This document shows, piece by piece, positions 21,046-38,457 of a DNA stretch of 64,000 nucleotides. How positions within the stretch are numbered: position 1 is the first letter of the stretch; every line of letters begins with the position of its first letter. The DNA lies in assembly GCA_035506535.1 (NCBI GenBank), contig DATJPE010000030.1, positions 62,001 to 126,000 of the forward strand, given 5' to 3'. The position numbers and the translations under genes were made by a program. The stretch is from Actinomycetes bacterium (GTDB lineage: Bacteria > Actinomycetota > Actinomycetes > DATJPE01). The notes below the pieces were generated by a model. That model worked only from the letters and a program-made list of their open reading frames with translations. It was not told the origin of the DNA and did not search any database.

Positions 21046-22367
21046 CCGTCCTCGTCGTGGGGCTGTCCCACCGCAGCGCCCCCGTCCCGCTGCTGGAGCG
21101 CGTCGCGATTCCCGGCGAGGCGACGGGAGCCTTCGCGGCCGATGCCGCGGCCGCCGATCACGTCGCCGAGGCCGTCGTCGTCTCCACCTGCAACCGGGTC
21201 GAGACCTATGCCGCGGTCGACCGCTTCCACGGCGGCGTCGCGGCGCTGTCGGAGCAGCTGGCCCGCCGCGCCGGGGTGTCGCTGGACGAGCTCGCTCCCC
21301 ATCTGTACGTCCACTTCGACGAACGAGCCGTCCAGCACCTGTTCTCCGTCGTCTGCGGCCTCGACTCCATGGTGGTCGGCGAGACCCAGATCCTCGGCCA
21401 GGTCCGGCAATCGCTGCGCCAGGCCCAGGAGCACGGCAGCGTGGGCAAGGTGCTGGGAGGGCTGTTCCAGGACGCCCTGCGGGTCGGGAAGCGGGCCCAC
21501 GCCGAGACCGGGATCGACCACGCCGGGTCGCGTCTGGTGGCGGCGGCGCTCGGCCTGGCGGAGCAGACCCTCGGCCCAGTCGAGTCCACCCGCGTGCTGC
21601 TCGTCGGCGCCGGGTCGATGAGCGCGCTCGCCGGGGCGACCCTCCAGCGGGCCGGCGCACGGCGGTTCACCGTCGCCAACCGGACCCTCACGAACGCCCG
21701 GCGCCTGGCCGAGCGGCTGGCCGCGGACGCCGTCGGGCTGGACCACCTCGCCGAGGCCCTCGCGGAGGCGGACCTGGTCGTGTCCTCGACCGGGGCGGTC
21801 GGGTACGTCGTCGGCGCCGCTGACGTCGCTGCGGCCGGTGCCCGCCGTGCTACCTCGCCCGGGCGGCCGCAGGTGCTGCTCGACCTGGCACTGCCGCGCG
21901 ACGTCGATCCCGCCGTCGAGAGCCTCGACGGGGTACGGGTCATCGACCTGGACCGACTGGGCAGCGTCCTCGCCGACGGCGAGACGGTCATCGACGTCGA
22001 GGCTGTTCGCGCGATCGTCACCGAGGAGGTGGCGCTCCACGCGGCGTCGCGCGCCATCGACCGGGTCGAGCCGACCGTGGTGGCGCTGCGGCGCCGCGCC
22101 GCGGACGTCGTCGCCTCCGAGCTGGCCCGGCTGGACGCCAAGCTGCCCGGGCTCGACCCCGCGGCGCGCGCCGAGGTCGAGCGCACCGTCAACCGCACCG
22201 TCGACAAGCTGCTGCACGAGCCGACGGTGCGCATCAAGGAGCTCGCGGCGTTCGGCGACGCGGGCGCCTATGCCCAGGCGCTGCATGCGTTGTTCGACCT
22301 GACGCCAGAGGCGCTCGAGGCTGTCGAACGAGTCGACGCCGTCCTGCCGAGCGAGACCCCGCGATGA
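21042..22367 (+). CDS. hemA: Glutamyl-tRNA reductase
   Basis: 441 residues from GTG 21042 (GTGA overlap with rex). First committed step of C5-pathway tetrapyrrole synthesis: glutamyl-tRNA to glutamate-1-semialdehyde with NADPH. Catalytic Cys50 in STCNRVE, GLSHRSAPV at the N-terminus, GETQILGQV, SSTGA and the NADPH loop LLVGAGSMSALA. The C-terminal dimerisation helix ends AFGDAGAYAQALHALFDL. Ends overlapping hemC. Inherits redox control from the rex promoter. Confidence 0.95.
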   Translation: MTVLVVGLSHRSAPVPLLERVAIPGEATGAFAADAAAADHVAEAVVVSTCNRVETYAAVDRFHGGVAALSEQLARRAGVSLDELAPHLYVHFDERAVQHLFSVVCGLDSMVVGETQILGQVRQSLRQAQEHGSVGKVLGGLFQDALRVGKRAHAETGIDHAGSRLVAAALGLAEQTLGPVESTRVLLVGAGSMSALAGATLQRAGARRFTVANRTLTNARRLAERLAADAVGLDHLAEALAEADLVVSSTGAVGYVVGAADVAAAGARRATSPGRPQVLLDLALPRDVDPAVESLDGVRVIDLDRLGSVLADGETVIDVEAVRAIVTEEVALHAASRAIDRVEPTVVALRRRAADVVASELARLDAKLPGLDPAARAEVERTVNRTVDKLLHEPTVRIKELAAFGDAGAYAQALHALFDLTPEALEAVERVDAVLPSETPR

Positions 22368-23278
22368 GCGCACTGCGCCTCGGTACGCGCCGCAGCTCGC
22401 TCGCGCGCGCCCAGAGCGAGGCTGTCGCGACCGCCATCACGGCGGCCACCGGACGGCCGGTGCGGCTCGTGGAGGTCATCACCGAGGGCGACCGCTCCTC
22501 GGCGCCGCTCGCGTCCATCGGGGGGGCCGGCGTCTTCACGCACGCTCTGCGAGACGCGCTCCGCTCCGGCGAGGTCGACCTGGCCGTCCACTCCTACAAG
22601 GATCTGCCGACCGCGGCTGCGCCCGACCTGTGCGTCGCCGCGGTGCCCTCGCGCGAGGACCCTCGTGACGTCGTGGTGTCGCGCTCCGACGCCCCGCTCG
22701 CCGGCCTGCCGCGGGGGTCGCGGGTCGGCACCGGCTCCCCGCGGCGCGCCGCGCAGCTGCGCGCCCTCGGGTACGGGCTCGACGTGGTCGACCTACGCGG
22801 CAACGTCGACACCCGGCTGCGCAAGGTGGCCGACGGTGAGGTCGACGCGGTCGTGCTCGCCCGCGCCGGCCTAGCCCGCCTCGGGCGCCTCGAGGAGGTG
22901 AGCGAGGTCCTGGACGCCGACCGGATGCTCCCCGCGCCGGCCCAGGGGGCGCTGGCCCTGGAGTGCCGCGCGGACCGCGCCGACGTCCTCGCCGCGGCGG
23001 CGATCCTCGACGACCCCGCCACCCGGGCCGCCGTGACGGCCGAGCGTGCCGTGCTGGCCGCCCTGGAGGCGGGCTGCTCGGCCCCCGTGGGCGCCCTCGC
23101 CCACGTCACACACGACGCCCTGTCCCTGCGAGCCGTGGTCGTCGCCGTCGACGGCTCTCGGGCCGTACGTCTGTCCGCCACCGGAGCACCCAGTGAGGCG
23201 GAGGTGGTGGGACGCCGTCTCGCCGCCGCCCTCCTCGCCGAGGGCGCCGACGGCCTGATGGGAGAACGCATCCCGTGA
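22364..23278 (+). CDS. hemC: Porphobilinogen deaminase (hydroxymethylbilane synthase)
   Basis: 304 residues, ATG 22364 (ATGA overlap). Joins four porphobilinogen units into hydroxymethylbilane. RLGTRRSSLARAQS, VDLAVHSYKDLPT (catalytic Asp80 region), GTGSPRRAAQL, LRGNVDTRLRK, and Cys238 in LEAGCSAPVGA, which carries the dipyrromethane cofactor. Normal length. Overlaps hemD by four bases. Confidence 0.95.
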   Translation: MSALRLGTRRSSLARAQSEAVATAITAATGRPVRLVEVITEGDRSSAPLASIGGAGVFTHALRDALRSGEVDLAVHSYKDLPTAAAPDLCVAAVPSREDPRDVVVSRSDAPLAGLPRGSRVGTGSPRRAAQLRALGYGLDVVDLRGNVDTRLRKVADGEVDAVVLARAGLARLGRLEEVSEVLDADRMLPAPAQGALALECRADRADVLAAAAILDDPATRAAVTAERAVLAALEAGCSAPVGALAHVTHDALSLRAVVVAVDGSRAVRLSATGAPSEAEVVGRRLAAALLAEGADGLMGERIP

Positions 23279-24888
23279 CCACGACCATGCCATCCTCGAA
23301 CCGGCGCAAGAAGCCCCCGGTCGGCTCGGTGACCTTCGTCGGGGCCGGCCCGGGCGATCCCGCGCTGCTGACGCTGCGCGCCGTCGAGGCCCTCGCCCAG
23401 GCCGACGCCGTGGTGCTCGACACCCAGGCCCGCGAGCAGTTCCTCGTCCACGCGCGCCCCGACGTGCTGGTGCTCGACGCGGCACAGGGACCCGACGGGC
23501 TCCCCCTGGGCCGACGGACCAAGCTCGTGGTGGACGCGGCGAAGGCGGGACACGCTGTCGTGCGCCTGGTCGACGGCGACCCGGGACTCTTCGGCGGGCT
23601 GGCCGAGGAGGCCGCGGCCTGCGTCAAGGCGAACGTGCCCTTCGAGGTCGTGCCCGGCGTGAGCCCGGCGATCGCCGCGCCGGCGTATGCCGGGATCCCC
23701 CTGACGGACGCGCGCACGCACGCGGTGCACGTCGTCTCGGCCGAGGGGGTCCACGACTTCTCGGCGCACGCAGACCCGTCGACCACCGTCGTGGTCGTCT
23801 CGTCAGTGGCCGACGTGGACACCGTGGTCAAGGAGCTCCTGCGGGCCGGACGCGACCCGAACACCCCCTCGGCGGTCATCCGGATGGGCACCACCACCGA
23901 GCAGCGCACGGTGACCGCCGCCCTGGAGGACCTGCCGTCGGCGGCGCGGGCCGCGAAGCTGGCGCAGCCGGTGGTCACGGTCGTCGGGCCGACGGTGGCC
24001 CACCGAGAGACCCTGTCCTGGTTCGAGACGAAGCCGCTCTTCGGGTGGCGCGTGCTCGTACCGCGGACCAGGGAGCAGGCCGGAGAGCTCTCCGCCCGGC
24101 TGCGCCGCCACGGCGCGGTCCCCGACGAGGTCCCGACCATCTCGGTGGAGCCGCCGCGTGCCCCGCAGCAGATGGACCGCGCCATCCAGGGCCTGGTCTC
24201 CGGGCGCTACCTGTGGGTCGCGTTCACCTCGGTCAACGCCGTGCGCGCCATCCGCGAGAAGTTCGAGGAGTACGGGCTCGACGCCCGCGCCTTCGCCGGC
24301 ATCAAGGTGGCCGCGGTGGGCGAGCAGACCGCCGCGGCGCTGCTCGCGTTCGGCGTGCGACCGGACCTGGTCCCGGCCGGGGAGCAGTCCTCGGCGGGGC
24401 TGCTGGAGGACTGGCCGGAGTACGACCGCCAGCTGGATCCGCTGGACCGGGTGTTCCTGCCGCGTGCCGACATCGCCACCGAGACTCTCGCCGCCGGTCT
24501 GGTCGAGCTGGGCTGGGAGGTCGACGACGTGACGGCGTACCGGACGGTCCGTGCCGCGCCCCCACCGGCCGCGACCAGGGACGCCATCAAGACGGGTGGC
24601 TTCGACGCCGTCGTCTTCACCTCCTCCTCCACGGTGCGCAACCTGGTCGGCATCGCCGGCAAGCCGCACGCCACGACGGTCATCGCCTGCATCGGCCCGC
24701 AGACCGCGAAGACGGCCGAGGAGCACGGCCTTCGCGTCGACGTCCTGGCCGACAAGCCCTCGGTGGTCGGCCTGGCGGATGCGCTGGCGGCGTACGGGGC
24801 CGCGCAGCGCCTCTCGGCGCTCGAAGCCGGCGAGGTGACCTGGCGTCCCTCCCAGCGGCGCGGCAACGCACGGCGCAAGGCGACCTGA
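23275..24888 (+). CDS. hemD: Uroporphyrinogen-III synthase fused to a methyltransferase-like domain
   Basis: 537 residues from GTG 23275. The N-terminal half (about 15-245) has the tetrapyrrole methylase fold: VTFVGAGPGDPALLTLRAVEALAQAD and VPGVSPAIAAPAYAGIPLT. The SUMT block usually reading RLKGGDPFxFGRG is RLVDGDPGLFGG here and the YDxLVS region is altered, so C-methylation activity is doubtful. The C-terminal half (about 255-510) is HemD: VLVPRTREQAGELSARLRRHGA, FTSVNAVRAI, VGEQTAAAL, FLPRADIATETLAAGL, FTSSSTVRNL, CIGPQTAKTAEEHGL. It cyclises hydroxymethylbilane to uroporphyrinogen III. The fusion matches actinobacterial hemD/cobA genes. Confidence 0.9.
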   Translation: MTTTMPSSNRRKKPPVGSVTFVGAGPGDPALLTLRAVEALAQADAVVLDTQAREQFLVHARPDVLVLDAAQGPDGLPLGRRTKLVVDAAKAGHAVVRLVDGDPGLFGGLAEEAAACVKANVPFEVVPGVSPAIAAPAYAGIPLTDARTHAVHVVSAEGVHDFSAHADPSTTVVVVSSVADVDTVVKELLRAGRDPNTPSAVIRMGTTTEQRTVTAALEDLPSAARAAKLAQPVVTVVGPTVAHRETLSWFETKPLFGWRVLVPRTREQAGELSARLRRHGAVPDEVPTISVEPPRAPQQMDRAIQGLVSGRYLWVAFTSVNAVRAIREKFEEYGLDARAFAGIKVAAVGEQTAAALLAFGVRPDLVPAGEQSSAGLLEDWPEYDRQLDPLDRVFLPRADIATETLAAGLVELGWEVDDVTAYRTVRAAPPPAATRDAIKTGGFDAVVFTSSSTVRNLVGIAGKPHATTVIACIGPQTAKTAEEHGLRVDVLADKPSVVGLADALAAYGAAQRLSALEAGEVTWRPSQRRGNARRKAT

Positions 24889-24889
24889 G

Positions 24890-25909
24890 TTGTCAGACGT
24901 CGCGGGCGCCGGAGCGCACGCAACGCCGGACAGCTTCCCGGCGTTGCGCGGCCGGCGGTTGCGGCGTACGGCCGCCTTGCGGCGGCTCGTCGCGCAGACG
25001 GCGCTGGACCCCGGCGACCTCGTGCTGCCCCTGTTCGTGAAGGAGGGGATCGCCGAGCCGGTGCCGGTCGCGTCGATGCCCGGCGTGCTGCAGCACACCC
25101 GTGACTCGCTGCGCAAGACGGCCCACGACGCGGTGGAGGCGGGCGTCGGTGGGCTCATCCTCTTCGGGATCCCGGCCGCCAAGGACGCACGCGGGTCCCA
25201 GGCCGACGATCCCCAGGGCGTCGTCCAGGTCGCACTGCGCGACCTGGCCGCCGACCTCGGCGATGCCACCGTGGTCATGGCCGACCTCTGCCTGTGCGAG
25301 TACACCGACCACGGCCACTGCGGACCCCTGAGCGCTGCCGGCGAGGTCGACAACGACGCGACGCTGCAGCGCTACGCCTCCGTCGCCCTGGCGCAGGCGG
25401 ACGCCGGGGCGCACGTGATCGCCCCGTCGGGCATGCAGGACGGCCAGGTCGCGGCGATCCGCGCCGCGCTCGACGGTGCCGGGTTCGCCGAGGTCCCCGT
25501 GCTCGCCTACGCGGCCAAGTACGCCTCCGCGTTCTACGGTCCCTTCCGCGAGGCCGCGGAGTCGACGCCGGCCTTCGGGGACCGCCGGGCCTACCAGATG
25601 GACTCCGCGAACGCCCGTGAGGCGCTGCGCGAGGTCCGGCTGGACCTGGCGGAGGGCGCGGACGCGGTGATGGTCAAGCCGGCGCTGCCCTACCTCGACG
25701 TGGTGCGGCAGGTCGCCGACACCGTCGACGTACCCGTCTTCGCCTACCAGGTCTCGGGGGAGTACGCGATGCTCGAGGCGGCGGCCGCGAACGGGTGGTT
25801 GGACCGCGATCGCGCCATCCTGGAGACCCTCACCGCCATCCGTCGCGCCGGCGCCGACGTGGTGCTGACCTACTGGGCCACCGAGGTGGCGCGCGCGCTC
25901 CGGTCCTGA
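24890..25909 (+). CDS. hemB: Porphobilinogen synthase (delta-aminolevulinic acid dehydratase)
   Basis: 339 residues. The start is TTG 24890, one base after the hemD stop; no ATG or GTG fits the normal N-terminus (RLRRTAALRRLVAQT). Condenses two ALA molecules. Visible: the zinc-type cysteine cluster DLCLCEYTDHGHCGPL, the Schiff-base lysines in LAYAAKYASAFYGPF and AVMVKPALPYLD, and the QVSGEYAM block. The three cysteines make it a Zn-dependent enzyme. Last gene of the rex-hem operon; a long palindrome follows. Confidence 0.93.
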   Translation: MSDVAGAGAHATPDSFPALRGRRLRRTAALRRLVAQTALDPGDLVLPLFVKEGIAEPVPVASMPGVLQHTRDSLRKTAHDAVEAGVGGLILFGIPAAKDARGSQADDPQGVVQVALRDLAADLGDATVVMADLCLCEYTDHGHCGPLSAAGEVDNDATLQRYASVALAQADAGAHVIAPSGMQDGQVAAIRAALDGAGFAEVPVLAYAAKYASAFYGPFREAAESTPAFGDRRAYQMDSANAREALREVRLDLAEGADAVMVKPALPYLDVVRQVADTVDVPVFAYQVSGEYAMLEAAAANGWLDRDRAILETLTAIRRAGADVVLTYWATEVARALRS

Positions 25910-25933
25910 CGCCGGTCGCCGCGCCCTCCTCCT

Positions 25934-25997
25934 CCACATGTGGCGGCCTTTCCGTCATTCCACGAGGCCTGAGTGACGGTCAGCCCGCCACAAGTGG
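25934..25997. repeat. Dispersed palindromic element, family 2 copy 1
   Basis: Outer arms CCACATGTGGCGG (25934-25946) and CCGCCACAAGTGG (25985-25997) with one mismatch, inner arms around CCGTCATTC and GAGTGACGG. Nearly the same sequence recurs at 51219-51278. It lies 25 bp after hemB and could act as its terminator. Confidence 0.75.
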
Positions 25998-26023
25998 GGG
26001 TAAGGGGGTGGGTCGGCCGAGGC

Positions 26024-26029
26024 TAGGGT
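26024..26029 (+). promoter_or_regulatory. -10 element TAGGGT, leaderless type
   Basis: TAGGGT, six bases, then GTG 26036. Confidence 0.5.
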
Positions 26030-26035
26030 CGGGCC

Positions 26036-26515
26036 GTGACGGGCGGGGCGGCGGACGGCGACGTGACGGGTGGCCCGGTCGGCGGTGAGGTGACCAGCGG
26101 AGCGGGTGACCGCGACCGCGATGCCGCGCACCGGCCACGGCAGGCGCGGCCGCGCGACGAGCTGGGACGCCCCTTGCCGTACGGCTCCCAGGGGGTCGAC
26201 CCCGTCCCGGACGCCCCCCTCGCGCCGGAGGAGGCGATCGCCGAGGCGCGACGGCTGGTCGAGTCGGGCCGGGCCTTCGCCGCCCACGAGGTCCTGGAGG
26301 CGCGGTGGAAGGCGGCACCGGAGGAGGAACGCGACCTCTGGCAGGGCCTGGCCCAGCTGTGCGTCGGCCTCACCCACGCCGGGCGCGGCAACGAGGTCGG
26401 CGCCGGCCGGCTCGTCGAGCGCGGGGCCGCCCGGCTGACGAGCTACGCCGGGCCGACGTACGGGCTCGACCTGGATGCCACCATCACCTGCGCCCGCCAC
26501 CACGTCGGCGGTTGA
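26036..26515 (+). CDS. DUF309 domain protein
   Basis: 159 residues from GTG 26036. A Gly/Asp/Arg-rich, probably disordered N-terminus (1-60), then the DUF309 helical domain: RLVESGRAFAAHEVLEARWKAAPEEERDLWQGLAQLCVGLTHAGRGN with the AHEVLE and WQGLAQ signature, ending LDLDATI. DUF309 proteins are small all-helical proteins of unknown function with conserved His/Glu that may bind metal. Single-gene unit, convergent with the pyrimidine operon. Confidence 0.8.
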   Translation: MTGGAADGDVTGGPVGGEVTSGAGDRDRDAAHRPRQARPRDELGRPLPYGSQGVDPVPDAPLAPEEAIAEARRLVESGRAFAAHEVLEARWKAAPEEERDLWQGLAQLCVGLTHAGRGNEVGAGRLVERGAARLTSYAGPTYGLDLDATITCARHHVGG

Positions 26516-26519
26516 CCGC

Positions 26520-26544
26520 ACCCGGGTGGCCGAACCGCCCGGGT
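26520..26544. terminator. Bidirectional terminator hairpin
   Basis: ACCCGGGTGG (26520-26529) pairs with CCGCCCGGGT (26535-26544), one G-T wobble, loop CCGAA. It lies between two convergent genes and can serve both. Confidence 0.65.
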
Positions 26545-26583
26545 CTGTGGCCTCGTCGGGATCAAGGGTCGGCGCCCGACAGG

Positions 26584-27600
26584 TCAGACCTTGGCGCGCA
26601 GGTGCTCCCGCAGGGCCGGGATGACCTTCTCGCCGTACGCCTCCAAGGTCGCCGCCTTCCCGTCGTGCTGCAGGTACACGGCGAACTGGTCGACCCCGAG
26701 CTCGCGCAGCTCGGTGAGGCGGCGGATGTGCTCCGCTGGCGGCCCCAGCACGCAGAAGCGGTCCACGATCTCGTCGGGCACGAACGCGGTGTGGGTGTTC
26801 CCCGCCTGTCCGTGCTCGTTGTAGTCGTAGCCGTCGCGGCCCTTGATGTAGTCGGTGAGCGCCTTGGGCACCGTGCCGGAGTCGCCGTAGCGACCGACGA
26901 GGTCCGCCACGTGGTTGCCCACCATTCCCCCGAACCAGCGGCACTGCTCGCGCATGTGCGCCAGGTCGTCGCCGACATATGCCGGTGCCGCGACGCAGAT
27001 CGTCACGTCGTCGGGGTCGCGTCCCGCGTCGCGCGCAGCGCGGCGTACGGCTCCGACGGTCCACGCGACCAGGTCCGGGTCGGCGAGCTGGAGGATGAAG
27101 CCGTCGCCGACCTCGCCGGCGAGCTGCAACGCCTTCGGGCCGTAGGCCGCGACCCACACCTCCAGCTCGCTGCTGGTGCCCCAGGGGAAGCGCAGCGTCG
27201 CGCCGTTGACCTCTACGGCGCGGCCGTTGCCGAGCTCGCGGATGACGTGGACCGCCTCGCGGAGCTCGGCCAAGGTCGTCGGGCGACCGTTGAGCACGCG
27301 CACCGCGGAGTCGCCCCGCCCGATGCCGCACACCGTGCGGTTGCCGTACATCTCGTTCAACGTCGCGAACAGCGATGCCGTGACTGTGACGTCGCGGGTG
27401 GCGGGATTGGTCACCATCGGCCCGACGACGACCTTGCGGGTGGCGGCGAGGATCGCGCTGTAGATGACGAACGGCTCCTCCCAGAGCAGGTGGGAGTCGA
27501 AGGTCCACACGTGGGAGAAGCCGTGCGTCTCCGCCTGGCGGGCCAGGTCGACCACCCGCGAGGCCGGGGGGTTGCACTGCAGAACGACTCCGACGTCCAT
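26584..27600 (-). CDS. F420-dependent LLM-class oxidoreductase, pyrimidine-catabolism type
   Basis: 338 residues from ATG 27600, with GAGGAG five bases upstream. Luciferase-like TIM barrel: MDVGVVLQCNPPASRVVDLARQAE, VWTFDSHLLWEEP, VVVGPMVTNPATRD, CGIGRGDSAV, VAAYGPKALQLAGEVGDGFILQ, CRWFGGMVGNH. It resembles the TIGR03842 group of predicted F420-dependent enzymes that co-occur with dihydropyrimidinase. Here it is the last gene of an operon with a dihydropyrimidinase and a carbamoyl amidohydrolase. A role in interconverting pyrimidine and dihydropyrimidine is therefore attractive, but inferred. Confidence 0.85.
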   Translation of the reverse strand: MDVGVVLQCNPPASRVVDLARQAETHGFSHVWTFDSHLLWEEPFVIYSAILAATRKVVVGPMVTNPATRDVTVTASLFATLNEMYGNRTVCGIGRGDSAVRVLNGRPTTLAELREAVHVIRELGNGRAVEVNGATLRFPWGTSSELEVWVAAYGPKALQLAGEVGDGFILQLADPDLVAWTVGAVRRAARDAGRDPDDVTICVAAPAYVGDDLAHMREQCRWFGGMVGNHVADLVGRYGDSGTVPKALTDYIKGRDGYDYNEHGQAGNTHTAFVPDEIVDRFCVLGPPAEHIRRLTELRELGVDQFAVYLQHDGKAATLEAYGEKVIPALREHLRAKV

Positions 27601-27609
27601 CGAGGCTCC

Positions 27610-29024
<1,415 letters not shown>

Positions 29025-29025
<1 letters not shown>

Positions 29026-29861
29026 CAGGGACGCACCAGGTCGCCGTAGGCGTCGGGGCGCCGGTCGCGGTAGAAGGCCCATCGGTTGCGCACCTCGGTC
29101 AGCAGGTCCATCTCGAGGTCGCGCACGACGAGCTCGGGGGCATGGCCGTCCGCCGCGCCCCCGACGATCTTCCCCTCGGGGTCCACGAAGTACGACGTGC
29201 CGTAGAAGTCGTCGTCGCCGAGGTCCTCGACGCCGACCCGGTTGATCGCGCCGACGAAGTACTCGTTGGCGACCGCCGCGGCGGGCTGCTCGAGCTGCCA
29301 GAGGTAGCTCGACAGGCCGCGGGAGGTGGCGGAGGGGTTGAACACGATCTCCGCGCCGTTCAGGCCGAGGGCACGCCATCCCTCGGGGAAGTGCCGGTCG
29401 TAGCAGATGTAGACGCCCACCCGCCCGACCGCCGTGTCGAACACGGGGAAGCCGAGGTTGCCGGGACGGAAGTAGAACTTCTCCCAGAAGCCCTTGACGT
29501 GCGGGATGTGGTGCTTGCGGTACTTGCCCAGGTAGCGCCCGTCGGCGTCGACGACGGCGGCGGTGTTGTAGAGCACGCCGGGCTGCTCCTGCTCGTACAC
29601 GGGCAGGACCATGACGATGCCGAGCTCGGCGGCCAGCGCCCGGAAGCGCTCGGTGGTCTCGCCGGGCACGGATTCGGCGTAGGAGTAGTACGAGGCGTCC
29701 TGCACCTGGCAGAAGTACGGCCCGTAGAACAGCTCCTGGAAGCAGACGACCTTCGCCCCCTGGGCCGCCGCGTCCCGCGCGTAGTCCTCGTGGACCTTGA
29801 TCATCGACTCCTTGTCGCCGGTCCACGTCGTCTGGACCAGGGCCGCTCGCACGATCGTCAT
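29025..29861 (-). CDS. Nitrilase-superfamily carbamoyl amidohydrolase (beta-ureidopropionase-like)
   Basis: 278 residues from ATG 29861. A GTG at 29873 is in frame, but the GGAGG would touch it, so the ATG is preferred. Catalytic triad Glu43 in CFQELFYGPYF, Lys116 in KYRKHHIP and Cys153 in YICYDRHFPEG; N-terminal IVRAALVQTTWTGD. It releases CO2, ammonia and a beta-amino acid (beta-alanine) from the product of the next gene. First gene of the three-gene minus-strand operon amidohydrolase-dihydropyrimidinase-F420 enzyme. No clear promoter seen in 29862-29945. Confidence 0.88.
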
Positions 29862-29945
29862 GGGCTGGAACACCTCCGGGTCGGCTCCGCCTCACTCTGG
29901 CACGGCAGGGCCCGCCCCGGGAGCCGGTCCGGGAAGCGGCAACAC

Positions 29946-30014
29946 CCGAGACCACGCAGGTGGTGGCTCACCACCCGGACCCTGCGTGGTCAACCACCAC
30001 CTGCGTGGTCTCGG
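29946..30014. repeat. Long perfect inverted repeat, probable terminator
   Basis: Arms of 21 bp without mismatch, 29946-29966 and 29994-30014 (the left arm begins CCGAGACCACGCAGG), with a 27-base loop. It lies four bases after the 3' end of the 807-residue membrane gene (minus strand) and upstream of the pyrimidine operon, so it probably insulates the two. The sequence differs from the two dispersed palindrome families. Confidence 0.8.
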
Positions 30015-30017
30015 TGC

Positions 30018-32441
30018 TCAGGGCGTGGCGGCGAGCGCGGCGACGGTGGCCGGGTAGGCCGGGTCCAGCCAGTAGTCGCTGTGCCGGCGCAGCGGGCCGT
30101 CACCCGGCGGCTGCGGGTCCGCCACCTCCTGGTCGACCTGGTCGGCATCCGCGACGCGCGGCGGTCCGGGGACGTACGAGCCCGCCCGGCCGGCGTCCGG
30201 CTCGAGGTTCCACGAGCCGATCGGGTCCGTGAGCCGGTACAGCGTGCGCCATCGCCCGGGCAGGCGCCGGCGCACCTCGGCGAGGACGGCCTCGTCGAAG
30301 TACTCCGGGAACCAGCGGCAGTACAGCCGCCGTACCGGCGACCCGTGCAGGAGCAGGCGCAGCCGCGGGCACAGGTCAGGGTGGAGGCGCAGCACCGTGG
30401 GGACGGCGAGGACGCTGCCCTGGCTGTGGCAGGACAGCACCACCACGTCACCCTCGCGCGAGCAGAGCCGGCCCACCCGCTCCTCGAGGTCGAGGACCGC
30501 CCGCTCCGCGTAGCAGGGAGGGGTCAGCGGGTGGACCGCCCGCGGCCAGAACGTCGCGACGTCCCAGAGGATCCCGACCACCCGCCGCCGGGAGCGGCTG
30601 CGCACCGAGGCGTAGCCGATGGCGACGAGGGCGGCCAGGACGCTGACGATGACCCACGACCCGGCCGCGGCGGCGAAACGCGGCAGCCCGTCGTTCGTGG
30701 CGTCCGGACGGCTGAGGTAGGCGAGGGTGCCGGCGAGGGCGACGACCACGCTGGTGAGGACGAGGACCGTGGCTGCCGCGCCCGCGCTGTCGGTGAGGGA
30801 GGCAACAGCTCTGGCCGTCGCGACCCGCTCCTTCTCCCGCGCCGACGCCGCCGGATAGTCGCCCGCCACCGCGGTGGCATCAGCCTTCGCGGGGCGCCGT
30901 ACCCGGGCGGCCGCCAGCCAGGCCACGAACGGAACCAGGCACAGCGCCACCACGACGGCGGCGGCCCCGGCCCAGACGTAGCCGGGGGGCACGATCAGCG
31001 CCGCGTCCGGCGTCGTGCTGGTGCGGGCGGCCTGGGTGGTGGTCACGGCGTGACCGAGCCACTGCGCGGTCTGCAGCCCGATGCCGGCGCTGAAGGCGAG
31101 GGCGAGCAGCCACGCCACCGTGGCGACCAGGCTCGCCGCGAGCCCGCCGGCAGCGATGCCGGGGTCGGTACGCCGTGCCGCGAGCACCGGCACCACGGTC
31201 AGCGCGAGCATGAGCGCGACCAACAGCGCCACGACCGGCCAGGGCGGCGAGCCCGGGTGCGAGCCGTCGCCTGCGGCGAAGCGCCCCGCGTACCAGAGCC
31301 CCGCCGCGGCGCCTGCGAGCGCGGTGGCCAGGGCGAGTACCACCGCGGCGCGACGTACGGCGGCGTCGGCATGCTGCGCACCCACCGCCGCGAACAGCAG
31401 CGGCACGAGGACGAGCTGGCCGGCGAACACCGCGACGACGAGCACCCGCAGCCCGGGCAGGTGCGACGGCATCGGCGCTGCCCGGGTGTGGACGGTCATG
31501 GCCAGGACCCAGGCGGCGGCGAGCACAGCCACCCCCAGCCCCTGCAGGAGCGCGGTCGGCCGGTTGGCCGAGGACGCGTCGGGGCCGCCGCGCCCCACGA
31601 AGCGCTCTGGGACCGCGAGCGCAGTGGCGAGGACCGCCAGCGCCGCAGCGAGGGTGAGGACCGCGTCCTCGAGACCGGGCGAGGAGTCGTAGCGGACGAC
31701 GGGCATGAGCACGAGCGCGGCGAGCACCGAGGTCGCGACGGTCACGTGCAGCCGGCGCAGCCGCTGGACCGAGGACTCGGTGACGAAGAAGCCGTCGCGG
31801 GCGATCATCAGCGAGCCGGGGTCGCGCCGGGGCTCCGGCGCGGTCGCCTCCACGAGGGAGCTGCGGCCGATCGTCCACAGCAGCAGGACCAGCGCAGCCG
31901 GCACCAGGGCCCCGACGGCGGCCCGCTGCTGCGGGCGGGCGAGTCGGCCGAGCCAGCCGACGAGGTCGTGCTGGGCGCCGCACACCGGCTGCGAGCCGCA
32001 CTGCCAGGCGGTCAGGTCCATGACCGCCAGCGCCGCGGCGGCGAGTGCGGTCACGGTCAGGGACAGCGCGAACAGGCGCAGCGTGGCCCGGCCGGCCCAG
32101 GCGGCCGCCCGCCGGCCGCGGGAGTCGGTCGTGGCCGCCACGGGCAGCATCCAGTACGCGAGGTCGACGAGGGTGAACGGCAGCGAGAGCAGCCACAGCG
32201 CCCGCAGGCCCGGCCCGGAGGTGAGCCCGCCCCACGAGTACGCCTCCACGCGCGCGACACCCTGCTCGGTCGGCGCGGGCGCGTCGCCGGGTAGCCAGCG
32301 GCGGAAGAACCCGGAGGCGGCGTCCCCGGCGACGATGGCCACCCACGGCGGCGGCATCTGCAGGATGGCGTCCGGCGGGGTCCCGGACACTCCGTGGACG
32401 CGCAGCTCGGTGGTTCCGCTCACCCCGTCGTCGAGGGCCAT
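30018..32441 (-). CDS. Large polytopic membrane protein with a split alpha/beta-hydrolase domain
   Basis: 807 residues from ATG 32441 (GGAGGTG upstream). The N-terminus reads TELRVHGVSGTP (12-22) and VARVEAYSWGG (62-72), as in the beta3 oxyanion and beta4 parts of an alpha/beta hydrolase. Roughly 80-625 contains about twelve or thirteen hydrophobic helices. The C-terminus (about 650-807) resumes the hydrolase: VVVLSCHSQGS, a nucleophile elbow with Ser673, then candidate Asp739 (LTDPIGS) and His787 (RRHSDYW). The fold would thus be interrupted by a membrane domain. Function unknown, perhaps lipid hydrolysis at the cytoplasmic face. The mapping is my inference. Divergent from hemL. Confidence 0.72.
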   Translation of the reverse strand: MALDDGVSGTTELRVHGVSGTPPDAILQMPPPWVAIVAGDAASGFFRRWLPGDAPAPTEQGVARVEAYSWGGLTSGPGLRALWLLSLPFTLVDLAYWMLPVAATTDSRGRRAAAWAGRATLRLFALSLTVTALAAAALAVMDLTAWQCGSQPVCGAQHDLVGWLGRLARPQQRAAVGALVPAALVLLLWTIGRSSLVEATAPEPRRDPGSLMIARDGFFVTESSVQRLRRLHVTVATSVLAALVLMPVVRYDSSPGLEDAVLTLAAALAVLATALAVPERFVGRGGPDASSANRPTALLQGLGVAVLAAAWVLAMTVHTRAAPMPSHLPGLRVLVVAVFAGQLVLVPLLFAAVGAQHADAAVRRAAVVLALATALAGAAAGLWYAGRFAAGDGSHPGSPPWPVVALLVALMLALTVVPVLAARRTDPGIAAGGLAASLVATVAWLLALAFSAGIGLQTAQWLGHAVTTTQAARTSTTPDAALIVPPGYVWAGAAAVVVALCLVPFVAWLAAARVRRPAKADATAVAGDYPAASAREKERVATARAVASLTDSAGAAATVLVLTSVVVALAGTLAYLSRPDATNDGLPRFAAAAGSWVIVSVLAALVAIGYASVRSRSRRRVVGILWDVATFWPRAVHPLTPPCYAERAVLDLEERVGRLCSREGDVVVLSCHSQGSVLAVPTVLRLHPDLCPRLRLLLHGSPVRRLYCRWFPEYFDEAVLAEVRRRLPGRWRTLYRLTDPIGSWNLEPDAGRAGSYVPGPPRVADADQVDQEVADPQPPGDGPLRRHSDYWLDPAYPATVAALAATP

Positions 32442-32507
32442 GACGCACCTCCGTCCGCAGCCTTGCGCTCCCGCGCCTGTGCGTACAGAGCCGAATGCGT
32501 GCAGTCA

Positions 32508-32525
32508 CGTACCGGTTCGGGTACG
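32508..32525. promoter_or_regulatory. Small inverted repeat in the hemL upstream region
   Basis: CGTACC (32508-32513), six bases, GGTACG (32520-32525). In the 125-bp gap between the divergent membrane-hydrolase and hemL genes; a possible operator. A GAGACT (32554-32559) lies seven bases before hemL GTG and may be its -10. Confidence 0.25.
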
Positions 32526-32566
32526 GCCGGTGGGGCGTCCGCGGCGGGCCTGAGAGACTGCTCCGT

Positions 32567-33868
32567 GTGACGTCCCGCTCCGAGCAGCTGTTCGTGCGCG
32601 CCCTCGCCGTCACCCCCGGCGGGGTGAACTCGCCGGTCCGGGCGTACCGGGCGGTCGGGGGCACGCCGAGGTTCATGGTCGCCGGCCACGGGCCGTACGT
32701 CGTCGACGCCGATGGTCGCGAGTACGTGGACCTGGTGGGCTCGTGGGGCCCGATGATCCTCGGCCACGCCCACCCTCAGGTGCTGTCGGCGCTGCGCGAG
32801 CAGCTGGCGGCCGGGACGTCCTTCGGTGCCCCCGGGCCCCACGAGGTGGAGCTGGCCGAGGAGATCGTCGCCCGCGCGCCGGTGGAGCAGGTCCGGCTGG
32901 TCAGCAGCGGCACCGAGGCCACCATGTCCGCGATCCGGCTGGCCCGGGCCTTCACCGGGCGCCCGCTCGTCGTGAAGTTCGCCGGCTGCTACCACGGCCA
33001 CGTCGACGCACTCCTGGCCGCGGCCGGGTCGGGTGTCGCCACCTTCGGGCTGCCGGACACCCCCGGGGTGACGGCCGCGACGGCGGCGGACACCCTCGTG
33101 GTGCCGTACAACGACCTGCCGGCGGTCGAGGCCGTCTTCGCCGAGCACGGCGAGCGGATCGCCTGCCTGGTCACCGAGGCGGCCGCGGCGAACATGGGCG
33201 TGGTGGCGCCCGAGGAGGGCTTCAACGCCGGGCTGGCCGACGTGTGCCGGCGCTACGGCGCCCTCTTCGTGAGCGACGAGGTGATGACCGGCTTCCGCGT
33301 GCACCGGTCCGGGTGGTACGGCCTCGACGGGGTGCGTCCGGACCTCATGACCTTCGGCAAGGTCATCGGCGGCGGCCTCCCGGCGGCGGCCTTCGGGGGG
33401 CGCGCGGAGATCATGGGGCTGCTCGCCCCGGCCGGGCCGGTCTACCAGGCGGGGACGCTGTCCGGGAACCCGCTGGCCACCCTCGCGGGGGTGACGACGC
33501 TGCGGCTGTGCACGCCCGAGGTCTACGCCCGGCTCGACGCCGCGGCCGAGGAGGTCGGACGGCTCGCCTCGGAGGCGCTGGCCAAGGAGGGCGTGCCGCA
33601 CGTCCTCGCACGGGCGGGGAACCTCTTCAGCGTCTTCTTCGTCGACCCGACCGTGACCCCCGCGGTGCGTGACTACGACGCCGCGCGCTCGCAGCACGCG
33701 CCGACGTACGCCGCGTTCTTCCACGCGATGCTCGACGCCGGCGTCTCGCTCCCCCCGAGCGCCTTCGAGGCCTGGTTCGTCTCGGCCGCCCACGACGAGC
33801 AGGCCCTGGCCCGCGTCGCCGACGCGCTGCCGGGTGCCGCCCGCCGCGCCGCGGAGGCGGGCGCATGA
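32567..33868 (+). CDS. hemL: Glutamate-1-semialdehyde 2,1-aminomutase
   Basis: 433 residues from GTG 32567. PLP enzyme making 5-aminolevulinate from glutamate-1-semialdehyde, the step after Hem[76 protein letters not shown], and the Schiff-base Lys265 in [12 protein letters not shown]. Normal length. It lies apart from the rex-hem operon and leads into the cytochrome c maturation genes with a four-base overlap. Confidence 0.95.
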
Positions 33869-34515
33869 GCACCGAGACCCTCGTCCACCTCGTCCGTCAC
33901 GGCGAGGTCGAGAACCCGACGGGCGTCCTGTACGGGCGGCTGCCCGGCTACCACCTGTCCGAGCTGGGCCGCCAGATGGCCGAGGTGGTGGCCAAGCACC
34001 TCGCCGACCGGGACGTGACGCACGTCGTGTCCTCCCCGCTGGAGCGCGCCCAGGAGACCGCGGCGCCGATCGCCGCGGCCCACTCCCTCGAGGTGGCCAC
34101 GGACGGTCGCCTCGTGGAGGCCAGCAACCACTTCCAGGGGCTGGCCTTCGGGGTGGGCGACGGCTCGCTGCGCCACCCGAGACACTGGCGCTACCTGACC
34201 AACCCGTTCCGCCCGTCCTGGGGCGAGCCGTACCGCGAGCTGGTGGCGCGCATGACGCTCGCCGTCGAGGGTGCCCGCGACGCCGCCCGCGGCCACGAGG
34301 CGGTCTGCGTCAGCCACCAGCTGCCGATCTGGATCCTGCGCTGTCATCTGGAGGGGCGCCGGCTCTGGCACGACCCCCGCCGCCGGGAGTGCACGCTCGC
34401 CTCGGTGACCACGGTGCACTTCGACGGCGACCTGGTGGTCGCGGTCTCCTACGACGAGCCCGCGCGCGCCCTGCTGCCGCAGCGCACGCGCGCGATGCCT
34501 CCAGCGGGCGCATGA
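33865..34515 (+). CDS. Histidine phosphatase superfamily protein
   Basis: 216 residues, ATG 33865 overlapping the hemL stop. [10 protein letters not shown] has the catalytic RHG, followed by [24 protein letters not shown], an internal acidic Glu region ([11 protein letters not shown]) and the second catalytic His in [12 protein letters not shown]. Phosphoglycerate-mutase-like phosphatase of unknown substrate; in mycobacteria a homologue (Rv0525) holds the same place between hemL and the ccs genes, from memory. Overlaps the next gene by four bases. Confidence 0.88.
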
Positions 34516-35132
34516 GGGCGCTGGCGCGCGCGGCGGTGGTGCTGGCGTCGGCCGTGCTGGCCGCCGGGTGCACGACCACCGGGCTGGGCGGTGTCGCGGG
34601 GGGCGGCGACACCAAGGACTCGCTGCGCACCGGCGTGACCGAGTGGGCCCCGGACCAGCGGTCGAAGCCGGTCACGCTCACCGGGGAGGACCTGGACGGG
34701 GCCCGGGTCGACCTCGCCTCGCTTCGGGGTTCGGTCGTCGTCGTCAATGTGTGGGGATCCTGGTGCGGCCCCTGTGTGGAGGAGGCCCCGGCCCTCGCGG
34801 CGGCGTACCAGCAGCTGCACCCCAAGGGCGTGCGCTTCGTCGGCATCGACGAGCGGGACAGCGGGGCGGCCGCCCGAAGCTTCGTGACCAACCACGACCA
34901 GAGGTGGCCGAGCCTGGCCGACGACGACGGATCGCTGCTGCTCGCCTTCCGCGGCACGGTGAACCCGAGCGCCATCCCGACCACCCTCGTGATCGACCCG
35001 CGGGGCCGGGTCGCCGCACGCGCCCTCGGAGCGGTACGCACGGACACCCTCACCGCGCTCGTGGACACGGTGCTCCAGGAGTCGTCGACACATCCGGCGT
35101 CGTCGGCCGCCACCTCGCCCGGGGCCGGCTGA
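34512..35132 (+). CDS. TlpA/ResA-like thioredoxin lipoprotein
   Basis: 206 residues, ATG 34512 (ATGA overlap). Signal peptide with lipobox VLAAGC (Cys20), so exported and lipid-anchored. AhpC/TSA-type thioredoxin fold with WGSWCGPC (Cys85, Cys88), GIDERDS and the cis-Pro in AIPTTLV. In System II it keeps apocytochrome c cysteines reduced for heme attachment, fed with electrons by CcdA. Followed directly by ccdA (TGATG). Confidence 0.92.
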   Translation: MRALARAAVVLASAVLAAGCTTTGLGGVAGGGDTKDSLRTGVTEWAPDQRSKPVTLTGEDLDGARVDLASLRGSVVVVNVWGSWCGPCVEEAPALAAAYQQLHPKGVRFVGIDERDSGAAARSFVTNHDQRWPSLADDDGSLLLAFRGTVNPSAIPTTLVIDPRGRVAARALGAVRTDTLTALVDTVLQESSTHPASSAATSPGAG

Positions 35133-35884
35133 TGGCCCTGCTCGGGACCTGGGCGGCCACGGTGACCGACGGGTCGCTGCTGCTGGCGCTGCCGATCGCG
35201 GCGATGGCCGGACTGGTGTCCTTCCTCAGCCCGTGCGTGCTGCCCCTCGTGCCCGGCTACGTGTCGTACACCACGGGGCTGGTCGGCGCTGACCTCGGGG
35301 AGGCGCGGCGAGGCCGCGTCCTCGTCGGGACGGGCCTGTTCGTCCTGGGCTTCACCGCGGTCTTCGTCTCCTTCGGCGCGCTCTTCGGGGGCCTCGGGTC
35401 GTGGCTGCTCGGGCACTCCCTGACGATCCAGCGGGTGCTCGGGGCGCTGACGATCGTCATGGGGCTGGCATTCATGGGCCTGCTCCCCGGGAACACCCGC
35501 GAGTGGCGCATCCACCGCGCTCCGGTCCTCGGACTGGCCGGCGCCCCCCTGCTCGGCGTCCTCTTCGGGCTGGGGTGGACCCCGTGCATCGGGCCGACGC
35601 TCGCCGCGGTCCAGACCCTGGCGCTCACCGAGGCGTCTGCGGCCAGGGGAGCCCTGCTCACGACCGCGTACTGCCTCGGCCTGGGCCTGCCGTTCGTCGC
35701 TGTCGCGCTCGGCCTGCGGCGGGCCGCCGACGGCGTCGGGTGGGTCAAGCGGCACTACCCGGTGGTCATGACCGCGGGGGGGATCCTGCTGGTCACGCTC
35801 GGCGTGCTGCTGCTCACCGGCGTCTGGAACCAGTGGTCGATCGAGCTGCGCTCCTGGGTCGCCGCCTACCGGGTGGGGGTCTGA
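35132..35884 (+). CDS. ccdA: Cytochrome c biogenesis transmembrane protein CcdA
   Basis: 250 residues, ATG 35132 sharing its A with the preceding stop. Six transmembrane helices with the redox Cys35 in SFLSPCVLPLVPGY and Cys152 in GWTPCIGPTL. Carries reducing equivalents from cytosolic thioredoxin to the TlpA-like lipoprotein. DsbD-family core without extra domains. Confidence 0.95.
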   Translation: MALLGTWAATVTDGSLLLALPIAAMAGLVSFLSPCVLPLVPGYVSYTTGLVGADLGEARRGRVLVGTGLFVLGFTAVFVSFGALFGGLGSWLLGHSLTIQRVLGALTIVMGLAFMGLLPGNTREWRIHRAPVLGLAGAPLLGVLFGLGWTPCIGPTLAAVQTLALTEASAARGALLTTAYCLGLGLPFVAVALGLRRAADGVGWVKRHYPVVMTAGGILLVTLGVLLLTGVWNQWSIELRSWVAAYRVGV

Positions 35885-37432
35885 GTGACCGACACGCTGA
35901 CCGGCACCGAGCCGACCGCGCCCCCGGCCGGCCTGGGTCCGTTGGGCTGGGCGCGCTGGGTGTGGCGGCAGCTCACCTCGATGCGGACCGCGCTGTTCCT
36001 GCTGTTCCTCCTCGCCCTCGCCGCGGTCCCCGGCTCGTTGCTGCCGCAACGAGGGACCGACCCGGTCGCGGTCGCCGACTACCTGCGCCGGCACCCGACC
36101 CTCGGCCCGATCCTCGACCGCCTGTCCGGCTTCGACGTGTTCGCGGCGCCCTGGTTCGCCGCGATCTACGTGCTGCTGCTCGTCTCCCTCGTCGGGTGCG
36201 TCCTGCCCCGGACCCGCCAGCACCTGCGCGCCTCACGTGCACGTCCTCCCGCCGCCCCCCGAAACCTCACCCGCCTGCCCGTGTCCCGTTCCTTCACCGC
36301 GCACCGGCCGGCGGAGGAGGTGCTGGAAGCGGCGTACGACGACCTTCGCTCGCACCGGTTCCGGGTCGAGCGCGGCGACGGCTACGTCGCCGCGGAGAAG
36401 GGTTTCCTGCGCGAGACCGGCAACCTCGTCTTCCACCTCGCGGTCGTCGCGATCCTCATCGGCGTGGGGGTCGGCTCGTCGTGGGGCTTCAAGGGCACGC
36501 GCATCCTGGTGGAGGGCGACGGCTTCTCCGACACACTGACCCAGTACGACGGCTTCACCGCCGGGCGCTTCACCAATGCTGACGACCTGCCGCCGTTCTC
36601 GCTCACCCTGAAGCGCTTCGACGCCACCTACCAGACCGCTGGCGACCAGCGAGGGGCGGCGCGCAGCTTCGCGGCGACCGTGCAGGTCATCGACCATCCG
36701 GGTGCGCAGCCGCGCACCGCGACCATCCGGGTCAACAGCCCCTTGCACGTCGCCGGGACGAAGATCTTCCTCGTCGGCCACGGGTACGCACCCCGGTTCA
36801 CGGTGCGCGACGGGCGCGGCGACGTCGTCTGGTCCGGCCCGATCGTCACCTTGCCCCAGGACCCGGTGAACCTGGCGTCGACCGGGGTGCTCAAGGTGTC
36901 CGGGGCCAGGCCGACCCAGCTCGGCTTCGTCGTCGACTTCTTCCCGACAGCCGCGACCGCCTCGGACGGCCGGCTGGTGTCCGCCTTCCCCGCCGCGGTG
37001 TCTCCCGCGGTGAACCTCGGCGGCTGGACCGGCGACCTCGGGCTCGACGTGCCCCAGTCGGTGTACCGGCTGGACACCTCGAGGATGACCTTGGTCGGGC
37101 GGTCGTCGCTTCGCGTCGGCTCGAGCTGGACGCTCCCGGACGGCGCGGGGACGATCACCTTCGACGGAGTCGACCAGTGGGTCAACCTGCAGGTGTCCCA
37201 CGACCCGGGGAAGGGCCTCGCGCTCGTGGCGGCGATCGCGGCCATCGTCGGGCTGCTGCTGTCCCTGCTGGTACGCCGTCGCCGGGTCTGGGTCCGCGCG
37301 TCGAGCGGAACCGACGGGCGTACCGTGGTGGCCGTCGCCGGGTTGTCGCGAACCGAGAACGGCGGCGTGGAACGCGACGTGGACGAGCTGGCCCGCCTGC
37401 TGGGCGCGCCGCCGGACCCCCCGGAGGGATGA
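35885..37432 (+). CDS. resB: ResB-family cytochrome c biogenesis protein
   Basis: 515 residues from GTG 35885, immediately after the ccdA stop. Helices near 30-55 (MRTALFLLFLLALAAVPGSLLPQ), 85-105 and 175-200 (LVFHLAVVAILIGVGVGSSWG), a large extracytoplasmic domain (about 205-440; VNSPLHVAGTKIFLVGHGYAP) and a final helix (ALVAAIAAIVGLLLSLLVRRRR). With the CcsA/B protein it forms the heme handling and ligation complex of System II. The first helix motif SLLPQRG is typical of ResB. Confidence 0.93.
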   Translation: MTDTLTGTEPTAPPAGLGPLGWARWVWRQLTSMRTALFLLFLLALAAVPGSLLPQRGTDPVAVADYLRRHPTLGPILDRLSGFDVFAAPWFAAIYVLLLVSLVGCVLPRTRQHLRASRARPPAAPRNLTRLPVSRSFTAHRPAEEVLEAAYDDLRSHRFRVERGDGYVAAEKGFLRETGNLVFHLAVVAILIGVGVGSSWGFKGTRILVEGDGFSDTLTQYDGFTAGRFTNADDLPPFSLTLKRFDATYQTAGDQRGAARSFAATVQVIDHPGAQPRTATIRVNSPLHVAGTKIFLVGHGYAPRFTVRDGRGDVVWSGPIVTLPQDPVNLASTGVLKVSGARPTQLGFVVDFFPTAATASDGRLVSAFPAAVSPAVNLGGWTGDLGLDVPQSVYRLDTSRMTLVGRSSLRVGSSWTLPDGAGTITFDGVDQWVNLQVSHDPGKGLALVAAIAAIVGLLLSLLVRRRRVWVRASSGTDGRTVVAVAGLSRTENGGVERDVDELARLLGAPPDPPEG

Positions 37433-38457
37433 GCGTGGCGATCGACGAGGGCCTCGCCCGGGTCAGCCTCGAGCTGGTCTACGGGTCCATCGGCATGTAC
37501 ACGCTGGCCATGGGTGCCTACGCGGTCGCCGCCGCGCAGGCCGTCCGCGCGCCGGCCCCGGCCGAGCAGGAGGACGTGGCCGAGGTCGCCCACCGGCCGG
37601 CGCTGGTGGCCACGCCGGTCGCCGTGGCCGGCGACGAGCCGCTGATCGTCGGCCAGGTGGCACGGGGCGGCGAGGCCCGCGCCATCAGCGCCCCGACCGA
37701 GGGTGCTTCCTGGCGCAAGGCGGCGGGCATCGGGACCTCGCTCAGCGTCCTCGCCGACGCCCTGCTGCTCGCCGCCATCATCACGCGCGGTCTCGCAGCC
37801 GGCCGCCCCCCGTGGGGCAACATGTACGAGTTCTCTCTCGTCGGCTGCTTCGTCATCGGGACCGCGTTCCTGGGCTTCGCGCTCACCGACCGGCGCCGCC
37901 AGCTGCTGGGCATCTTCGTCATCCCGCTCGTCCTGCTCGCGCTCGGCCTCGGGGTCACGGTGCTGTACGTCGATGCCGAGGCGCTGCTCCCCGCGCTGCA
38001 CTCCTCGTGGCTGGTCATCCACGTGACGGCGGCGATCGTGTCGAGTGGCGCCTTCTGCTTCGCCGGCGTGATCTCTGCGGTCTACCTGGTCCAGGAGCGG
38101 GCGGAGCGGGTCGCACCCGGCGGCCGACTGGCCCGCCTGCTCCCGCCGTCGCGAGCCCTGGACACCCTCAGCTACCGCGTCATCGCGTTCACCTTCCCGC
38201 TGTGGACCTTCGCGATCATCGCCGGAGCCATCTGGGCGGAGAACGCCTGGGGCCGCTACTGGGGCTGGGACCCCAAGGAGACCTGGGCCTTCATCACGTG
38301 GGTGATCTACGCCGCTTACCTGCACGCCCGCGCGACGGCCGGCTGGAGGGGCCGGGGCGCGGCCTTCATCTCCCTCGCCGGCTTCGCGGCGATGACCTTC
38401 AACCTGTTCGGGGTGAACCTGTTCATCACCGGTCTGCACTCCTACGCAGGGGTCTGA
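37429..38457 (+). CDS. System II cytochrome c heme-lyase subunit (CcsA/CcsB family)
   Basis: 342 residues, ATG 37429 overlapping the resB stop. Polytopic protein with the heme-handling WWD-type motif WGRYWGWDPKETWAFITW and flanking histidines (LHSSWLVIHVTAA, YLHARA). The stretch between the first and second helices (about 40-95) is longer than usual and low-complexity. It presents heme for ligation to CXXCH motifs outside the membrane. Named ccsA in some genomes and ccsB in others. Overlaps the DUF4229 gene by one base. Confidence 0.92.
   Translation: MSVAIDEGLARVSLELVYGSIGMYTLAMGAYAVAAAQAVRAPAPAEQEDVAEVAHRPALVATPVAVAGDEPLIVGQVARGGEARAISAPTEGASWRKAAGIGTSLSVLADALLLAAIITRGLAAGRPPWGNMYEFSLVGCFVIGTAFLGFALTDRRRQLLGIFVIPLVLLALGLGVTVLYVDAEALLPALHSSWLVIHVTAAIVSSGAFCFAGVISAVYLVQERAERVAPGGRLARLLPPSRALDTLSYRVIAFTFPLWTFAIIAGAIWAENAWGRYWGWDPKETWAFITWVIYAAYLHARATAGWRGRGAAFISLAGFAAMTFNLFGVNLFITGLHSYAGV

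Follow-up and report, generated by a model that had tools for sequence, protein, structure and literature searches.

The gene studied here occupies positions 30018 to 32441 (stop codon included) on the minus strand of the window, the whole 64,000-nucleotide stretch of DNA that was analyzed, and encodes a protein of 807 amino acids (P0001). Analysis of the open reading frames of the window identified it as a real gene, with an ATG start that is preceded, six bases ahead, by a Shine-Dalgarno-like GGAGG (32448-32452, minus strand) and with relatives that align over the full length. Its GC content by codon position (0.78/0.58/0.95) follows the same pattern as that of the neighboring genes. An overlapping plus-strand frame of 1050 residues has this pattern reversed (0.94/0.55/0.75), and we therefore rejected it as a non-coding shadow frame. 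The gene diverges from hemL (32495-33868), the open reading frame of which begins at 32495 and the likely start of which we take to be the GTG at 32567. Downstream, between the gene and hemB, positions 26584-29873 of the same strand carry genes for a carbon-nitrogen hydrolase, a dihydropyrimidinase-like amidohydrolase and a luciferase-like oxidoreductase, a trio that is probably a pyrimidine-degradation set inserted into the heme cluster of the source genome. The wider block (20383-38457) holds genes for HemA, HemC, a HemD-type protein, HemB and HemL, followed by ResA, CcdA, ResB and CcsA-type cytochrome c genes. Some of the heme-gene names come from our own interpretation of the translations; HemB has the support of Pfam, which identifies the HemL frame as a class-III aminotransferase.

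The gene is present in a single chromosomal copy in its genome and adjoins hemL in seven genomes of its lineage, namely the source genome and six that were sampled. Where the region is covered in these seven, the gene lies between hemB and hemL, which are followed by phosphoglycerate-mutase-like, ResA, CcdA and ResB genes, and the heme and cytochrome c block flanks it, in whole or in part, in the six sampled genomes. Relatives from Streptomyces have other neighbors than the heme set, and a comparison of neighborhoods covering the source lineage and Streptomyces found no partner gene conserved across genera. Because the heme context is restricted to one lineage, it is poor evidence for the substrate, and the heme and cytochrome c neighbors do not suggest a lipid as that substrate.

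No Pfam or NCBIfam family matched the 807-residue protein at cut-off, and, as no curated cut-off was passed, we place the protein in the alpha/beta hydrolase superfamily by homology and in no named family. A first sample of 60 genomes from the class had relatives in 19, and a wider one of 297 had them in 79 (72 of the 268 genomes of good quality); relatives occur in other classes of Actinomycetota as well. At least 552 stretches of GTDB contigs carry relatives, the best 80 of which are all from Actinomycetota as judged by their titles, while no relative was found on viral contigs. More distant cousins lie on plasmids of Streptomyces (604 residues) and Cupriavidus (751 residues), both annotated as "hypothetical protein," and profile comparison ties these plasmid cousins and a distant actinobacterial member to the family at 99.5%. 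This is a conserved, unnamed and widespread actinobacterial family. Among its outlying members, a distant protein of 921 residues (L123, 1894-4656, minus strand) reads LGVG at the HG motif, so that the oxyanion histidine is lost, and retains HSQGT at the elbow; the Cupriavidus plasmid member is encoded near a gene for a patatin-like phospholipase, with two small genes between them (L131, 1674-2408 and 4246-6501); and the frame of a Bailinhaonella member (L065, 7992-11849) extends to 1286 residues, possibly through a long C-terminal extension.

The AlphaFold2 model of the 807-residue protein (pLDDT 85.9, pTM 0.90) has short strands at both ends and 12 long helices between them. All features of the protein given below are located on the minus strand. 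The N-terminal part of the predicted hydrolase (residues 10-78; 32208-32414) contributes modeled strands at residues 10-15, 34-39, 44-48 and 64-69, and contains HGVSG (residues 16-20; 32382-32396), with an oxyanion-type HG at the end of strand 3, and EAYSWG (residues 66-71; 32229-32246), which forms strand 4 in the model. The C-terminal part (residues 615-807; 30021-30599), delimited by the model, conservation and hhalign, comprises a helix, the elbow strand 666-672 and strands 694-699, 731-735 and 770-772. It includes the segment WDxxxFWPRxxHPxxPPxYxER (residues 626-647; 30501-30566), the nucleophile elbow VVVLSCHSQGSV (30411-30446) with Ser673 at 30423-30425, the candidate triad acid Asp739 within TDPIG (30225-30227) and the candidate triad base His787 within HSDYW (30081-30083). 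The sequence-only reading had singled out RVHGVSGTP (residues 14-22), AYSWGG (residues 67-72), the CHSQGS elbow with Ser673, Asp739 and His787, and each lies at the position it had given.

Across the 61 aligned members of the family, residues E12, H16, G17, V18, G20, E66, Y68 and W70 of the N-terminal part and W626, D627, F631, P633, H637, Y644, H672, S673, G675, W731, D739 and H787 of the C-terminal part are invariant, which argues that these motifs did not arise by chance. The mean pairwise identity of the 61 members is 0.71 in the core formed by strands 3 and 4 and 0.68 over residues 615-740, against 0.45 in the membrane part; over the whole of residues 10-76 it is 0.58, compared with the same 0.45. 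Both ends are thus the constrained part of the protein, while the membrane part drifts. The arrangement is that of the alpha/beta hydrolase superfamily, with the oxyanion HG (H16-G17) placed after strand 3 and upstream of the elbow, the invariant CHSQGS elbow placed after strand 666-672, and the invariant Asp739 and His787 downstream of it in the order Ser-Asp-His. One could suppose that the fold has been retained for the assembly of a membrane complex and has given up catalysis, as the cofactor-biogenesis neighbors in one lineage and the lack of any known activity would allow, but the invariance of Ser673, Asp739, His787 and HG in all 61 members, drawn from several orders, makes such a structural role very improbable. 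The protein is quite probably an active serine hydrolase.

Between the two conserved parts lies the inserted membrane domain (residues 108-614; 30600-32120). The 12 to 13 helices counted in the sequence-only reading agree with the model, which gives 12 long helices and, directly after strand 4, a broken hydrophobic helix at residues 79-97 (32151-32207; helices 79-84 and 87-97 in the model). A distant member of 704 residues from another genome was modeled with a pLDDT of 90.1 and a pTM of 0.91, again with strands at both ends, and has 10 long helices. The difference between 12 and 10 helices corresponds to an extra transmembrane hairpin (residues 360-424; 31170-31364) that, among the 61 aligned members, is found only in the 807-residue protein, where the region spans 71 residues; none of the remaining 60 has more than 22 there. 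With an even number of membrane crossings the two ends would share one side, and in every one of the 61 members the charges of the loops, read by the positive-inside rule, assign that side to the cytoplasm. The hydrolase would sit at the inner face of the membrane; the sequence-only reading had proposed the membrane face.

The placement of helix 79-97 is the weakest point of this topology. As the helix is broken before Pro88 in the model of the 807-residue protein, it is probably interfacial or re-entrant. Were it to span the membrane, the number of crossings would become odd (13 in the 807-residue protein and 11 in its relatives) and the membrane would separate the two ends, so that they could not form one enzyme. 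The helix is hydrophobic enough to span, and its equivalent in the 704-residue model (residues 65-83) is unbroken. We nonetheless regard this arrangement as improbable given the break before Pro88, since it would also leave the C-terminal half alone without the HG strand that soluble homologues possess and the invariance of the N-terminal HG without an explanation.

The soluble homologues provide the closest comparison for the order of the two ends. These actinobacterial alpha/beta hydrolases (the A4 set; Abhydrolase_6, PF12697) possess, in the same order as the split family, an HG strand, a strand 4 with Tyr and Trp, a DVxxYL helix, an HSxGS elbow and, after the elbow, GSPL, WxN....D and H..Y. 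The residues of the triad align, with the elbow matching the invariant HSLG of the soluble family, Asp739 its invariant D214 and His787 the histidine of H...YL, and the WDxxxFWPRxxHPxxPPxYxER segment is the equivalent of the DVxxYL that precedes the soluble elbow. The soluble enzymes differ in having no membrane domain: their strand 4 and DVxxYL helix are separated by 75-127 residues, whereas about 560 residues separate the equivalents in the split family, and about 375-455 in its plasmid and distant members. As the soluble spacing is itself variable, the membrane domain sits at a point where length already varies. Abhydrolase_6 matches 10 of 15 soluble homologues at E <= 0.001. The lead soluble homologue scores above its cut-off, over a stretch that takes in the elbow as well as the HG strand.

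Profile comparison by hhalign relates the C-terminal half to the soluble hydrolases at 97.5%, with the triad residues aligned, and in the reciprocal search a soluble query matches the elbow of the split family. When the N-terminal 78 residues are taken alone, their HGV aligns to the soluble HG with a score of 21.9, compared with a maximum of 15.4 among 200 shuffles. When the whole soluble profile is the reference, the N-terminal part scores 22.1, with a maximum of 25.7 and a 95th percentile of 14.8 among 200 shuffles. Covariation between the ends gave no clear pattern (112 sequences, effective depth 58). Joining the N- and C-terminal parts did not raise the Pfam alpha/beta hydrolase scores over those of the C-terminal part alone in the same five members; an apparent rise of hydrolase matches upon in silico excision of the membrane domain had come from contrasting different members, and we discarded it when the controlled run showed no gain. 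From the homology to soluble hydrolases and the confident models, we infer that the two ends would share a single sheet, with the triad residues close in space. The claim that a Ser-Asp-His hydrolase is split in sequence, a membrane domain lying between its elbow half and the segment with the HG strand and strand 4, is borne out by conservation, the model and the soluble homologues, and the protein is very probably a split alpha/beta hydrolase with both ends in the cytoplasm.

In several actinobacteria (L143-L146, L148), the soluble homologues are fused behind a domain that we take, from its sequence, to be trypsin-like, and these fusion proteins may be effectors of conflict systems. Multicellular bacteria have alpha/beta hydrolases among their effectors (PMC7159879, PMC8195603), and by extension the split enzyme might cut lipids of its own cell's membrane once triggered. 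This self-killing role is highly improbable for a gene that is present in a single chromosomal copy, keeps its place among heme genes in the seven genomes of its lineage, was not found on viral contigs and encodes a protein for which PADLOC returned no match. A role in defense, raised by the trypsin-fused soluble cousins, found no support at the 30018-32441 locus and was set aside.

With the 704-residue model, Foldseek recovered cutinases, most at a probability of 0.9-1.00 with E of 0.07-0.4 and partial cover of the chain, and with the 807-residue model it gave partial matches to cutinases and lipases. Neither model had a match at E <= 0.001, in the viral library likewise, since a local aligner cannot span an insertion of 500 residues. 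Cutinases and class-3 lipases (PF01083, PF01764) resemble the family in the elbow region and are the best structural matches of the modeled hydrolase half; they differ in being small, secreted and free of a membrane domain, and their matches fall under the curated cut-offs. A sequence search of solved structures with the 807-residue protein returned chance matches only.

The inserted domain had been described from the sequence as channel- or transporter-like, a description that we do not retain. A transporter or channel with a coupled or regulatory hydrolase, in which the membrane domain moves the substrate to be cut or the product, would account for the 10-12 long helices and for the few polar membrane residues that are conserved (R122, T129, D142 and H232), and Foldseek does report a weak resemblance of the domain to MATE, MurJ and NKCC1. 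These matches, however, have probabilities of at most 0.51 and an rmsd near 20 Å, and are too poor for the domain to be called transporter-like. Within the membrane part, just 11 of 534 positions stay unchanged across the 61 members, the extra region varies between members, and no transporter or channel family of Pfam or NCBIfam matches the domain at cut-off. Transport, in sum, is an unlikely function for the inserted domain.

Cys148 and Cys154 (31980-32000) lie in the first predicted extracytoplasmic loop, are both present in 57 of the 61 members and possibly form a disulfide; D142, W146 and Q147 beside this loop are strongly conserved. This pattern, together with an insertion point inside the catalytic fold and next to the oxyanion strand, could be taken to indicate a signal-gated hydrolase, in which the cysteine loop senses an envelope condition and the membrane domain switches the cytoplasmic hydrolase by displacing the oxyanion HG, together with strand 4, against the elbow. 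Such gating seems decidedly unlikely in a protein that has short outer loops, carries no sensor domain and keeps no partner genes across genera. In its most specific form, the inserted domain would be a one-protein transmembrane switch that senses the envelope via the cysteine loop and, by moving strand 4 against the elbow, turns the oxyanion site of a lipid hydrolase in the cytoplasm from open to closed or back, a speculative and improbable scheme. To our knowledge, no alpha/beta hydrolase has been described that is gated by a polytopic domain inserted into it.

The reading that we prefer, to which we assign a probability of about 0.5 as a whole, is that of a split hydrolase of lipids or esters at the inner leaflet, with a mode of action similar to that of eukaryotic PGAP1. 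Residues 10-78 would supply strand 3 with its oxyanion HG, along with strand 4, and residues 615-807 would supply the pre-elbow helix, the elbow with Ser673, Asp739 and His787, such that the two halves meet as a single cytoplasmic domain. The membrane domain, with 12 helices in the 807-residue protein and 10 in other members, would interrupt the chain after strand 4 and ahead of the pre-elbow helix, and may hold the active site against the inner leaflet. It may also form, jointly with helix 79-97 and the WDxxxFWPRxxHPxxPPxYxER segment, a lateral opening that admits an amphiphile or an ester-linked lipid, so that Ser673 would deacylate a membrane lipid (a phospholipid, lysophospholipid, acylglycerol or glycolipid) much as PGAP1 does. 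That the substrate is a membrane lipid or a lipid-like ester is suggested by analogy, and we hold the chances of this to be about even.

The membrane-held serine hydrolase PlaF, an inner-membrane phospholipase A1 of Pseudomonas aeruginosa, likewise acts on the phospholipids of its own cell, but is held by one N-terminal transmembrane helix and has a periplasmic catalytic domain (PMC9132575). The closer parallel is the GPI inositol deacylase PGAP1/Bst1, in which ten transmembrane helices form a crater that holds the alpha/beta hydrolase, with the lipid chains entering via a joint side cavity (PMC10761859). A single lipase domain of PGAP1, described as separate from the transmembrane domain, contains the elbow Ser327, Asp407 and His443 (PMC10761859). 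The likeness thus consists of a Ser-Asp-His hydrolase on a 10-helix membrane domain with a side cavity that holds lipid chains. PGAP1 differs in its contiguous lipase domain, its lumenal active site and its jelly-roll domain; in the split family, by contrast, the transmembrane domain interrupts the hydrolase, the active site is predicted to be cytoplasmic and there is no further domain. The Pfam PGAP1 model (PF07819) is not listed for the 807-residue protein and matches four excised members weakly (best E 0.05). We therefore ruled out that the split hydrolase is itself a PGAP1, on the curated-model score, the interruption of the fold and the predicted cytoplasmic side.

The membrane-bound alpha/beta hydrolases known to us carry their anchors at one end of the fold. 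Here, a domain of 10-12 helices interrupts the hydrolase fold itself, and does so across a large family that has neither a name nor a curated model and is found in about a quarter of the sampled genomes of the class. The architecture had been called unusual. No hydrolase with a membrane domain inserted in this way was found described in the open-access literature that we searched. The architecture is not a one-off, being conserved across an actinobacterial family. The soluble cousins and the split family constitute a before-and-after pair for studying the insertion of a membrane domain into an enzyme fold. If the family does consist of inner-leaflet lipid hydrolases, its members would be candidates in the unsettled question of which enzymes carry out the deacylation and remodeling of membrane lipids in actinobacteria.
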